Of a DNA stretch of 64,000 nucleotides, positions 23,087 to 25,647 are shown piece by piece. The DNA comes from Mangrovibacterium diazotrophicum (GTDB taxonomy: Bacteria; Bacteroidota; Bacteroidia; Bacteroidales; Prolixibacteraceae). Made by a program: the position numbers and the translations under genes. The notes beneath the pieces are model-generated. The model saw only the letters and a list, made by a program, of their open reading frames with translations. It searched no databases and was not told where the DNA came from. The DNA lies in the NCBI RefSeq assembly GCF_003610535.1, contig NZ_RAPN01000001.1, positions 2,157,320 to 2,221,319 on the forward strand, in the 5' to 3' direction. Position 1 is the first letter of the stretch. Each line of letters starts with the position of its first letter.

Positions 23087-24433
23087 ATGAACAAATCACT
23101 GCTCATTTTAAAGCGCGAATACCTCACCCGCGTTCGAAAAAAGTCATTTATTATTATGACTTTGTTGTTCCCTTTTTTAATGGCTGCGATGACGATTTTA
23201 CCAGCCTGGCTTGCCATGCAGGATGATAAAGAAGAACGCACCATCGCCGTTTACGATGCTACCGGCATTTTCCTCGGACGGTTGGACGGAAACGAATACA
23301 CCAAGTTTCATTATATGCCCGAAGAGGAATACCAAAAGGCAAAATCCGACATCAAGGGCAGTCCCTATTACGCCGTTCTGTTTATTCCCCCCAATATCCT
23401 GAGCTCAAACCGGGCACAGTTATTCTCGGACAAACAGGTTACCATTGATGTAAAATCGATGATAAACGACCGATTGGAAAAACTGATTGAAAGCGACAAA
23501 AAGCAGCGTGTTATCGACGAATCCGGAATCCCTGATTTAGAGCAACAATTGGCTGCAACTCACACCAACATCAAGCTCGACACCATTAAAGTGGGCGAAA
23601 ACGGTGAGACCGCGAAGAGTTCGACCGAAATAGCAATGGGCTTGGGCTATTTGGCCGGATTCATTATTTACATGTTTGTATTAATGTACGGCATGATGGT
23701 TATGCGCGGGGTTATGGAAGAAAAAACAAACCGGATTGTTGAAGTCATCATTTCATCTGTAAAACCAATGCAGCTCATGTTTGGGAAGATTGTCGGCATT
23801 GGGTTGGTTGGCCTCACCCAGATTCTGTTCTGGCTTATCATCGGCACTGCAATCGTGACCGGAGCAAAAGCCTTTTCCGGCACCGGCCAGGTTCAAGCGA
23901 TTGAAACGAGCCAAAACCTAATGACCACGCCTGGAATAACCGCAGCGCAGCCTATGCAGGCGGAACAGCAGAATGCAGTGATGCAGGCTTTCGACTCGCT
24001 CAGCAATTTAAACCTGCCACTCATCTTCGGAAGTTTTATTTTCTACTTTTTAGGCGGATTCCTGATCTATTCTTCAATCATGGGAGCTATTGGCTCGGCT
24101 GTCGATCAGGATGAAGACTCGCAGCAACTGATGTTCCCGGTTATGCTCCCGTTAATCTTCTCCATCGTTATTTTATTCCCGGTTGTCAAGAATCCGGAAG
24201 GAGCCCTTGCTTTTTGGGCGTCCATGGTACCATTCACCTCTCCTGTCATCATGATGGTGCGTGTTCCTTTTGGAATACCAACCTGGCAATTAATCCTATC
24301 AATGAGTATTTTAGCGGCATCAATCGTGGGAGTAATCTGGATTGCAGGCAAAATTTACAGAACCGGAATCTTAATGTACGGCAAAAAACCCAACTTTAAA
24401 GAAATTATTAAATGGCTGCGATATCGAAATTAA
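23087..24433 (+). CDS. ABC-2 transporter permease (NatB-like)
   Basis: A 448-residue permease. An N-terminal helix (SFIIMTLLFPFLMAAMTILP) is followed by a periplasmic region of about 150 residues, then five or six helices from about residue 190 (MGLGYLAGFIIYMFVLMYGMM onward). EEKTNRIVEVIISSVKPMQLMFGKIVGIGLVGL is the conserved coupling region of the NatB/ABC-2 class (here cited by segments). It is the partner of the ATPase 2 nt upstream. No terminator was found directly after it; the cysK leader begins within about 60 nt. Confidence 0.92.
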   Translation: MNKSLLILKREYLTRVRKKSFIIMTLLFPFLMAAMTILPAWLAMQDDKEERTIAVYDATGIFLGRLDGNEYTKFHYMPEEEYQKAKSDIKGSPYYAVLFIPPNILSSNRAQLFSDKQVTIDVKSMINDRLEKLIESDKKQRVIDESGIPDLEQQLAATHTNIKLDTIKVGENGETAKSSTEIAMGLGYLAGFIIYMFVLMYGMMVMRGVMEEKTNRIVEVIISSVKPMQLMFGKIVGIGLVGLTQILFWLIIGTAIVTGAKAFSGTGQVQAIETSQNLMTTPGITAAQPMQAEQQNAVMQAFDSLSNLNLPLIFGSFIFYFLGGFLIYSSIMGAIGSAVDQDEDSQQLMFPVMLPLIFSIVILFPVVKNPEGALAFWASMVPFTSPVIMMVRVPFGIPTWQLILSMSILAASIVGVIWIAGKIYRTGILMYGKKPNFKEIIKWLRYRN

Positions 24434-24496
24434 TTTTTCAAAAACGTGACTATTCTCAGATTTTTTATTTATAATTGTTCCAGATAAGAAAACGAC

Positions 24497-24577
24497 ATGA
24501 ATAAATACTTCTTCTATATGTGCATGTGTTGCTGTATGAAAATGCAAAAGGAGGAAGGTATGTGTCTGCTTCAATAG
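24497..24577 (+). CDS. Putative cysteine-rich cysK leader peptide (26 codons)
   Basis: This ORF encodes 26 residues starting MNKYFFYMCMCCCMKMQ and ending GMCLLQ, stop TAG at 24575-24577. Five of 26 codons are Cys, four of them within codons 9-13 (TGC ATG TGT TGC TGT), and five besides the start are Met. It lies upstream of cysK with an intrinsic terminator between. The composition, position and downstream RNA pairing options are those of a classical amino-acid attenuator that senses charged tRNA-Cys. A weak -7-like box TATAATTG lies at 24470-24477. Translation is not demonstrated. Confidence 0.75.
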   Translation: MNKYFFYMCMCCCMKMQKEEGMCLLQ

Positions 24578-24630
24578 CGATTCTATTTAAACAATCATAT
24601 AGAGCCTTCCCGAAACGGAAGGCTTTTTTT
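24503..24630 (+). promoter_or_regulatory. Four-segment transcription attenuator upstream of cysK
   Basis: Segment 1 CTTCTTC (24508-24514) can pair with segment 2 GAGGAAG (24551-24557, one G-U); the Cys codons lie in the loop. Segment 2 GGAAGG (24553-24558) can instead pair with segment 3 CCTTCC (24605-24610). Segment 3 and segment 4 (24617-24624) form the terminator. A ribosome stalled at the Cys codons would mask segment 1 and free 2 to block the terminator; rapid translation to the stop would cover 2 and allow termination. The logic is inferred from pairing; no folding energy was computed. Confidence 0.7.
24603..24630 (+). terminator. Intrinsic terminator (attenuator) before cysK
   Basis: AGCCTTCC (24603-24610) pairs exactly with GGAAGGCT (24617-24624) around CGAAAC, and a run of seven T follows (24624-24630). 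It stands 39 nt before the cysK ATG, so cysK transcripts initiated upstream must pass it. Confidence 0.88.
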
Positions 24631-24668
24631 ATGCTTCGAAATTTTAAAACCCTATAAAATTAAAACAA

Positions 24669-25580
24669 ATGAAAGTTAACAACATCTTGGAAACCATCGG
24701 CAACTCGCCGCTAGTTCGTTTAAATCGTCTGTTCCCTGCAGACTATGAAGTATATGTAAAAGTTGAAAAAACAAACCCAGGAGGTAGCATCAAGGATCGT
24801 ATCGCGTTGGAAATGGTTGAAGCAGCCGAACGCGACGGTATCTTGAAACCCGACACCTTGCTGGTTGAGCCAACTTCGGGAAACACCGGTATTGGCTTGG
24901 CGTTGGTAGCTGCAGTAAAAGGCTACAAACTGATTTTGGTGATGCCGGAATCAATGTCGATTGAAAGACGCCGCATTTTGACAGCCTACGGCGCTGAACT
25001 GGTTTTGACACCAAAAGAAAAAGGGATGAAAGGTGCCATTGCCAAAGCGGAAGAAATCGCAGCAGAAAACCCAAATTCATGGATTCCATCGCAATTTGAC
25101 AATGCGGCCAATATCGAAGCTCACCGCAAAAACACGGCGAAAGAGATTTTGGCAGATCTTCCGGAAGGATTTGACTACCTGATTACCGGTGTTGGTACTG
25201 GCGGGCACATTTCAGGTGTTAGCGAAGTTGTAAAAGCAAAATTCCCGAACATTAAAACATTTGCAGTTGAACCGGAATCGTCTCCGGTTATCAGTGGTGG
25301 AGCACCTGGGCCTCACCCAATCCAGGGAATTGGCGCAGGTTTCATTCCGAAAAACCTGTTAACAGATTTACTGGACGGAACAATCCAGGTATCGAAAGAT
25401 GAAGCTTTTGAATACGCCAAAAGAGCAGCAAAAGAAGAAGGTTTGTTTATCGGAATTTCTTCGGGTGCCTCCCTGGCCGCTATCGCGAAAAAACTCCAGG
25501 AACTTCCGAAAGGTTCAAAAATTGTCACTTTCAGCTACGATACCGGCGAACGCTACCTATCAGTTGAAGGACTATTTTAA
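24669..25580 (+). CDS. cysK: Cysteine synthase A (O-acetylserine sulfhydrylase)
   Basis: A 303-residue PLP enzyme that makes cysteine from O-acetylserine and sulfide. The Schiff-base Lys is in [16 protein letters not shown] near residue 42; [15 protein letters not shown] and the phosphate-binding loop [13 protein letters not shown] are present, as is the C-terminal [10 protein letters not shown]. The length is typical for CysK. Expression probably depends on the Cys-codon leader upstream, a rare direct link between leader content and enzyme product. Monocistronic, followed by a strong terminator. Confidence 0.95.
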
Positions 25581-25618
25581 ACGAACATTTCAATATAAAT
25601 ATGGGAAACACCCTATTA

Positions 25619-25647
25619 AACCAGCTCTTTTACGGGCTGGTTTTTTT
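25619..25647. terminator. Intrinsic terminator after cysK
   Basis: AACCAGC (25619-25625) pairs with GCTGGTT (25636-25642), extended inward by T-G and C-G pairs, and followed by seven T (25641-25647). Confidence 0.88.

Follow-up and report, generated by a model that had tools for sequence, protein, structure and literature searches.

A probable cysteine-codon transcription attenuator upstream of cysK in a family of Bacteroidota

The window, a 64-kb stretch of DNA from a Prolixibacteraceae-like genome of about 5.8 Mb, carries on its forward strand the gene cysK for cysteine synthase A (24669-25580, 303 aa). The gene product matched the NCBIfam model TIGR01139 with 417.5 bits against a cut-off of 350.95, so that the gene is a true cysK and encodes the cysteine-forming enzyme that the original prediction had assumed. 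Among the matches returned for this CysK, the closest named relative was Sunxiuqinia sp. SZUA-417 (91%). A permease-like gene on the same strand stops at 24433, and downstream of it follows a leader peptide ORF of 26 codons (24497-24577, forward strand; MNKYFFYMCMCCCMKMQKEEGMCLLQ). Direct reading placed cysteine at codons 9, 11, 12, 13 and 23, as had been predicted. The putative regulatory codons read Met-Cys-Met-Cys-Cys-Cys (codons 8-13; 24518-24535, forward strand), where the tandem cysteines are conserved and in-frame ATG codons are enriched among relatives. The intrinsic terminator of the leader (24603-24630) is located between the leader ORF and the ATG of cysK at 24669. An independent terminator scanner found it with the arms AGAGCCTTCC and GGAAGGCTTT (stem 24603-24624, loop of 6) and with the predicted seven T (24624-24630, forward strand). 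Terminator-like sites were not commoner in a 2-kb scan than in shuffled sequences (2 found, 2.3 in shuffles), and the case therefore rests on conservation. A second terminator-like hairpin was seen directly 3' of cysK at 25618-25643, which is consistent with cysK being a single-gene transcript.

A candidate promoter element, TATAATTG (TAnnnTTG; 24470-24477, forward strand), resembles the -7 box of the Bacteroidota. Among 79 relatives, 46 had the motif TAnnnTTG no more than 60 nt 5' of the ATG of the leader, with 11.0 expected from shuffles, and 12 had the stricter TAnnTTTG in the same zone (4.8 expected). Transcription would then start at about 24482-24486, some 15 nt before the leader ORF.

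The four pairing segments were found in the window sequence where they had been predicted, all on the forward strand. Segment 1 (CTTCTTC, 24508-24514) is likely a protector arm for segment 2; it is paired in the minimum free energy fold, with p 0.05 against shuffles for the window. Segment 2 (GAGGAAGGT, 24551-24559, with GAGGAAGG at 24551-24558) is the putative 5' strand of the antiterminator and can pair with segment 1 as well. Its GGAAGGT is complementary to the GCCTTCC of segment 3 (24604-24610, CCTTCC at 24605-24610), which was recovered by the terminator scan and by a pairing search and would be common to antiterminator and terminator. Segment 4 (GGAAGGCT, 24617-24624) is the 3' arm of the terminator in the same scan. 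On the strength of the comparison described below, in which the pairing of segment 2 covaries across genera, we treat the segments 2, 3 and 4 as established. The minimum free energy fold of 24483-24636 contained both the 1:2 and the 3:4 hairpin and reached -37 kcal/mol, compared to -27.7 for shuffles (sd 3.5; z -2.65).

The conservation of the leader was analysed in the family of the window's genome, where cysK1-type matches were present in 98 of 140 genomes. The upstream region was readable in 96 of these, the contigs of L029 and G103 starting inside cysK. In 79 of the 96 genomes and in 14 of the 16 genera, cysK1 was preceded by a leader containing two or more Cys codons in tandem, with a terminator after it. 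This count omits L024, a false positive whose apparent leader sits in the upstream gene (80 reduced to 79); it includes both L129 and L131, which are identical over the last 150 nt, and does not recount loci that are copies of family genomes (L034-L043, L045, L068, L316, L322 and L323). Sunxiuqinia indica, Draconibacterium sediminis and Mariniphaga sediminis (L035, L042 and L043) carry the cysK leader. Of the 96 rows, 84 had a terminator no more than 200 nt from cysK. For a control, 1920 upstream regions were simulated with a second-order Markov model: 112 had a tandem-Cys ORF and 27 a terminator, and none had both. Both elements were likewise found in 0 of 88 upstream regions of other long ORFs from the window and the family loci; this set had initially held 91 regions, of which the three that scored were cysK genes missed by the name filter and were removed.

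Among the 17 exceptions, 12 had no terminator, and 11 of these 12 had no tandem-Cys ORF either. Leader and terminator thus tend to be lost together. Both were absent from all 8 genomes of the genus g3 and from L122, L167 and L179. In L162 no terminator was found, and the sole tandem-Cys ORF lies inside the upstream gene. Two loci with a terminator, L114 and L160, have Cys codons that by eye are scattered and not tandem, and were counted as misses. In L014, L019 and L024 the leader region is absent and the terminator is kept, no more than about 10 nt from the stop codon of the upstream gene. Outside the family, 149 usable loci contained five identical pairs, none of them with a positive, which left 144 distinct cysK loci (L104, L319 and L320 were too short and L315 had no usable cysK). 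Leader and terminator were present in 6 of the 144, including two Ignavibacteriales (L081 and L094), and a Cys-run ORF alone in 8; most loci were without leader and terminator. One further locus, L226, had scored and was rejected for an unconvincing 44-aa leader and weak hairpin (7 reduced to 6).

The antiterminator was then compared in 85 rows, 79 from the family and 6 from elsewhere, by searching for the best uninterrupted pairing between the terminator 5' arm and the stretch from the last tandem Cys codon to the terminator. The mean 2:3 score was 9.64, compared to 6.58 for shuffles; in single rows, p was at or below 0.05 in 50 of the 85, not in all. The arms differ between genomes and yet remain complementary, as in TGCAGAAAGGT/GCCTTTCTGCA (L135), ATTCAGGGAGG/CCTTCCTGAAT (L161), AATGGAAGG/CCTTCCATT (L176), AACGGGAGG/CCTTCCGTT (L233) and GGAAGGT/GCCTTCC in the window. 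When the arms were swapped among the 85 rows, the native 2:3 pairing was better in 2589 cases, worse in 265 and tied in 604. With 20 representatives (14 family genera and the 6 loci outside the family) the native pairing was better in 163, worse in 12 and tied in 15 cases, and the native total was not attained in any of 10,000 permutations of the arms. A negative-control region 5' of the Cys codons showed no such covariation (p 0.32). These comparisons, which counted covariation for 2:3, show that the putative antiterminator pairing covaries across genera. Relative to the leader frame, segment 2 started in each of the three phases (41, 23 and 15 of the 79 leaders); what is conserved is thus the pairing of the RNA rather than the peptide.

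The three pairs 1:2, 2:3 and 3:4 of the original prediction fared unequally. The leader RNA of the window folds into 1:2 and 3:4, and 2:3 covaries, but the 1:2 pairing is poorly supported across the set, with p at or below 0.05 against shuffles in 15 of 85 rows, though it is present in the window's genus. Its position also varied: it lies 5' of the Cys run in relatives of the window, and immediately 3' of the run in many g6 genomes.

A ribosome covers about 15 nt to either side. The end of the Cys run was separated from segment 2 by a median of 13 nt (quartiles 13-15), and the end of segment 2 from the end of the stop codon by a median of 15 nt (quartiles 13-20). The spacing thus fits the footprint: a ribosome stalled at the Cys codons would leave segment 2 free and a ribosome at the stop codon would cover it. 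Early folding was modelled with the partition function of the RNA before segment 4 exists, with a threshold of 0.5 for the probability of 2:3. The threshold was reached in 74 of the 79 leaders when the ribosome was placed at the first Cys codon of the run, in 64 when it stood at the last Cys codon and in 12 when it had arrived at the stop codon. Without a ribosome it was reached in 51, and protection by 1:2 is therefore weak or modest in most genomes. The same model applied to Escherichia coli leaders clearly separated the stalled from the finished ribosome for thrL and pheL. For trpL it gave 0.45 with the ribosome at the first Trp codon and 0.96 at the last; it barely separated leuL (0.52 at the first and 0.06 at the last Leu codon) and did not separate hisL, where the automatically picked 2:3 segment is probably not the published one. 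With segment 4 added, 3:4 won at equilibrium in almost every state of the model, and did so in 76 of the 79 leaders even when the ribosome stood at the first Cys codon, which means that the switch has to work kinetically. The terminator likewise won in four of the five E. coli controls (thrL, trpL, leuL and hisL; pheL alone differed), and equilibrium folding was rejected as an uninformative test of the switch.

Attenuation appears to be a control mode that is in use in this lineage, since His-codon leaders were found before hisG. In the window's own genome, the leader MKFNLGHHGHHHLFLFNGRP and a terminator precede hisG (L344, 1200-1330) and look like a classical his attenuator. Of 12 hisG-type loci that were read, 6 had a His leader, and in 5 of these 6 the best terminator followed the leader.

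Taken together, the conserved tandem Cys codons and terminator, the covarying 2:3 pairing, the ribosome-scale geometry and the His attenuator in the same genome argue for reading the leader before cysK as a cysteine attenuator of the classical type, in which the ribosome mediates the control of transcription; to this we assign a probability of about 0.9. The ORF with its Cys codons, the terminator, the pairing and the geometry follow from sequence and comparison; leader translation, kinetic competition and control by charged tRNA-Cys we infer from them. RNA polymerase would start about 15 nt 5' of the leader ORF. At low levels of Cys-tRNA, the ribosome would stall on the Cys codons 9-13 and cover segment 1, so that segment 2 could pair with segment 3 immediately once the latter emerges; the terminator hairpin 3:4 would then come too late and cysK would be transcribed. 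When Cys-tRNA is plentiful, the ribosome would reach the stop codon and cover segment 2, 3:4 would form and transcription would stop at the T tract. The comparison with the relatives suggests that cysK is turned on when cysteine is short. The original prediction had proposed attenuation by charged tRNA-Cys and a comparison with Bacteroidota relatives as its check; the tandem Cys codons and terminator in 79 of 96 genomes and the covariation of 2:3 support it.

In-frame Met codons beside the Cys codons were absent from the original prediction. Met makes up 18.5% of the residues before the Cys run in the family leaders. Among 72 distinct leaders, 47 carry a Met at position -1 and 43 carry one at -3. 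Before the run, 18 in-frame ATG codons were seen in 14 genus representatives where 1.6 were expected, and 0 and 2 in the other two frames (1.4 and 1.3 expected). For all 79 leaders the numbers were 137 in frame with 10.5 expected, and 2 and 6 in the other frames with 9.6 and 9.4 expected. The same attenuator might therefore read Met and Cys codons as a combined sulfur-amino-acid sensor, where a shortage of either charged tRNA raises cysK; the in-frame enrichment speaks for this, and we give it a somewhat lower than even chance. In addition, two g17 genomes have a leader with MRNFTSNMNMCMCSMMMCMCR together with a terminator before cysD; its Met codons come after Cys codons, and it too argues for sensing of both amino acids. 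On the other side, no Met was found in the four codons before the run in 5 of the 14 genus representatives (g9, g16, g18, g20 and g23; 2 of the 4 g9 leaders do have one), and the same holds for five of the six leaders from other families. Some internal ATGs are possibly alternative starts, as the script takes the most upstream ATG, and the Met counts are inflated by shared ancestry. A dual attenuator with interleaved Met and Cys codons (MCMCCC, MMMCCC), recruited to cysDN in the two g17 genomes (MNMCMCSMMMCMC leader), is proposed tentatively, as a hypothesis that extends the cysteine attenuator and does not replace it.

The g17 leader MRNFTSNMNMCMCSMMMCMCRAIRMRKWTSG (L364, 1205-1366, with one residue different in L377) and a terminator stand just 5' of cysD, and by eye ATGCGGAAG of this leader is able to pair with CTTCTGCAT in the terminator. 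Matches to cysD were present in 121 of the 140 genomes; among 30 loci that were read, a Met/Cys leader with a terminator was found in L376 (the same site as L364) and L377 only. A 44-aa ORF flagged before cysD in L387 was unlike the g17 leader and was rejected. The window genome's own cysD (L355) has no Cys leader. For PAPS-reductase-type genes, a Cys leader was found in 1 of 20 loci (L364), a set in which the script chose an ORF other than the matched gene in at least 4 (L351, L358, L360 and L362). At cysE and cysS the gene was taken to be the longest ORF spanning the centre of the locus. No tandem-Cys leader was found at 30 cysE loci, 21 of them matching at E<1e-40, apart from a short chance-like ORF at a weak non-cysE match (L270), which was rejected; at cysS the count was 0 of 25 loci of the relatives.

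Three further explanations of the cysK leader were considered. The Cys-rich peptide might itself be functional, as a metal- or thiol-binding or an arrest peptide, while the terminator ends a separate small RNA. The cysteines are clustered in the leader peptide, and a trans-acting leader peptide has been reported for peTrpL (PMC7298713). However, the reading frame shifts between groups relative to the RNA motif 3' of the Cys run, and inspection by eye showed no conservation of the peptide past the run, which makes a functional peptide very improbable. A riboswitch or T-box-like RNA could control the terminator in place of translation, since a terminator-controlled leader precedes an amino-acid gene here. 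No Rfam 15 family, T-box and Bacteroid-trp included, matched at gathering thresholds in the whole window; the best match at a relaxed threshold was Phe_leader (24.9 bits compared to 55, E 0.033), and the RNA between leader ORF and terminator is short and by eye little conserved, so that we hold this to be less probable still. That the ORF arose by chance and the terminator ends an upstream ABC transporter operon, as the permease-like gene ending at 24433 on the same strand might suggest, is contradicted by the absence of both elements together from the 1920 simulated and the 88 other upstream regions and by the 2:3 covariation, and can practically be dismissed.

Ribosome-mediated attenuation requires that RNA polymerase and ribosome run close together. 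As far as we found in the literature, this coupling has hardly been tested in Bacteroidota. A cysteine attenuator conserved in most of a family, with covarying pairs and ribosome-fitting spacing, would be evidence for such coupling in this phylum and would provide a ready reporter for coupling tests in cultured environmental species, the three named above among them. With it, cysK joins the genes possibly under charged tRNA-Cys control, and the testable hypothesis of Met-plus-Cys sensing arises; should the dual reading be true, a small attenuation-based sulfur regulon would exist in Bacteroidota.

The cysK leader resembles the E. coli leaders thrL, trpL, leuL, hisL and pheL in having a short ORF with tandem codons for the product amino acid, a segment 2 located 3' of them, competing 2:3 and 3:4 pairings and a T tract. 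It differs in that it would sense cysteine, perhaps with methionine, occurs in another phylum and targets cysK, and in the window's genus segment 1 precedes and segment 2 follows the Cys codons. Polycysteine leaderless short ORFs of mycobacteria are reportedly cysteine-responsive, to go by the title of a 2020 study by Canestrari (cited in PMC13236596). Actinobacterial cys leaders have been predicted with a Cys run near the stop codon and no conserved terminator hairpin (PMC1262725). The window leader shares with this mycobacterial and actinobacterial type the poly-Cys leader 5' of cysteine genes, but is of a different type, with its Cys run in the middle of the ORF and a strong terminator. Leaders resembling the actinobacterial polycysteine type and not that of the window were seen at cysK2-type genes in L182, L184 and L186 (g19 and g5), where a poly-Cys run such as CCCKCCCCC* reaches up to the leader stop; no convincing terminator was found there, L184 having a weak hairpin inside the leader. 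In the family f130 (L225, L227, L231 and L240), Cys-rich leaders just 5' of cysK have a G+C-rich hairpin adjoining their Cys codons on the 3' side, and a stalled ribosome might block this hairpin directly; the gene 5' of these leaders looks by eye like a serine acetyltransferase.

In the Bacteroidota themselves, the Bacteroid-trp RNA (RF01692), by its name located before trp genes, is a candidate cis-regulatory RNA (PMC2864571); it had 0 matches in the window's own genome. For Flavobacterium psychrophilum, strong indications that amino-acid operons are attenuated through leader peptides have been reported (PMC9723704), and a cysteine case may be among its leaders. Short ORFs in long 5' UTRs are described for B. 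thetaiotaomicron, none of them named for cysteine in the available part of that study (PMC7366714). The open-access library that was searched yielded no recognisable description of a cysteine attenuator ahead of cysK for this phylum. The motif uORFC-8-2 of the Rhodobacterales (PMC8632094) is predicted to sense Cys-tRNA before cysS and likewise combines tandem Cys codons, two in that case, in a short upstream ORF with an intrinsic terminator. It differs in controlling cysS, in having been found in one alpha-proteobacterial order and in having the Cys codons within the first stem; the window leader stands before cysK and not before cysS. The original prediction placed cysteine attenuators outside the textbook cases; as a kind they are not new (PMC1262725, PMC8632094 and, by its title, the mycobacterial study). 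Since all tested features fit the known kind except the weak 1:2 hairpin, the leader is counted with the cysteine attenuators, and what appears new, going by the open-access literature searched, is the cysK version in Bacteroidota.
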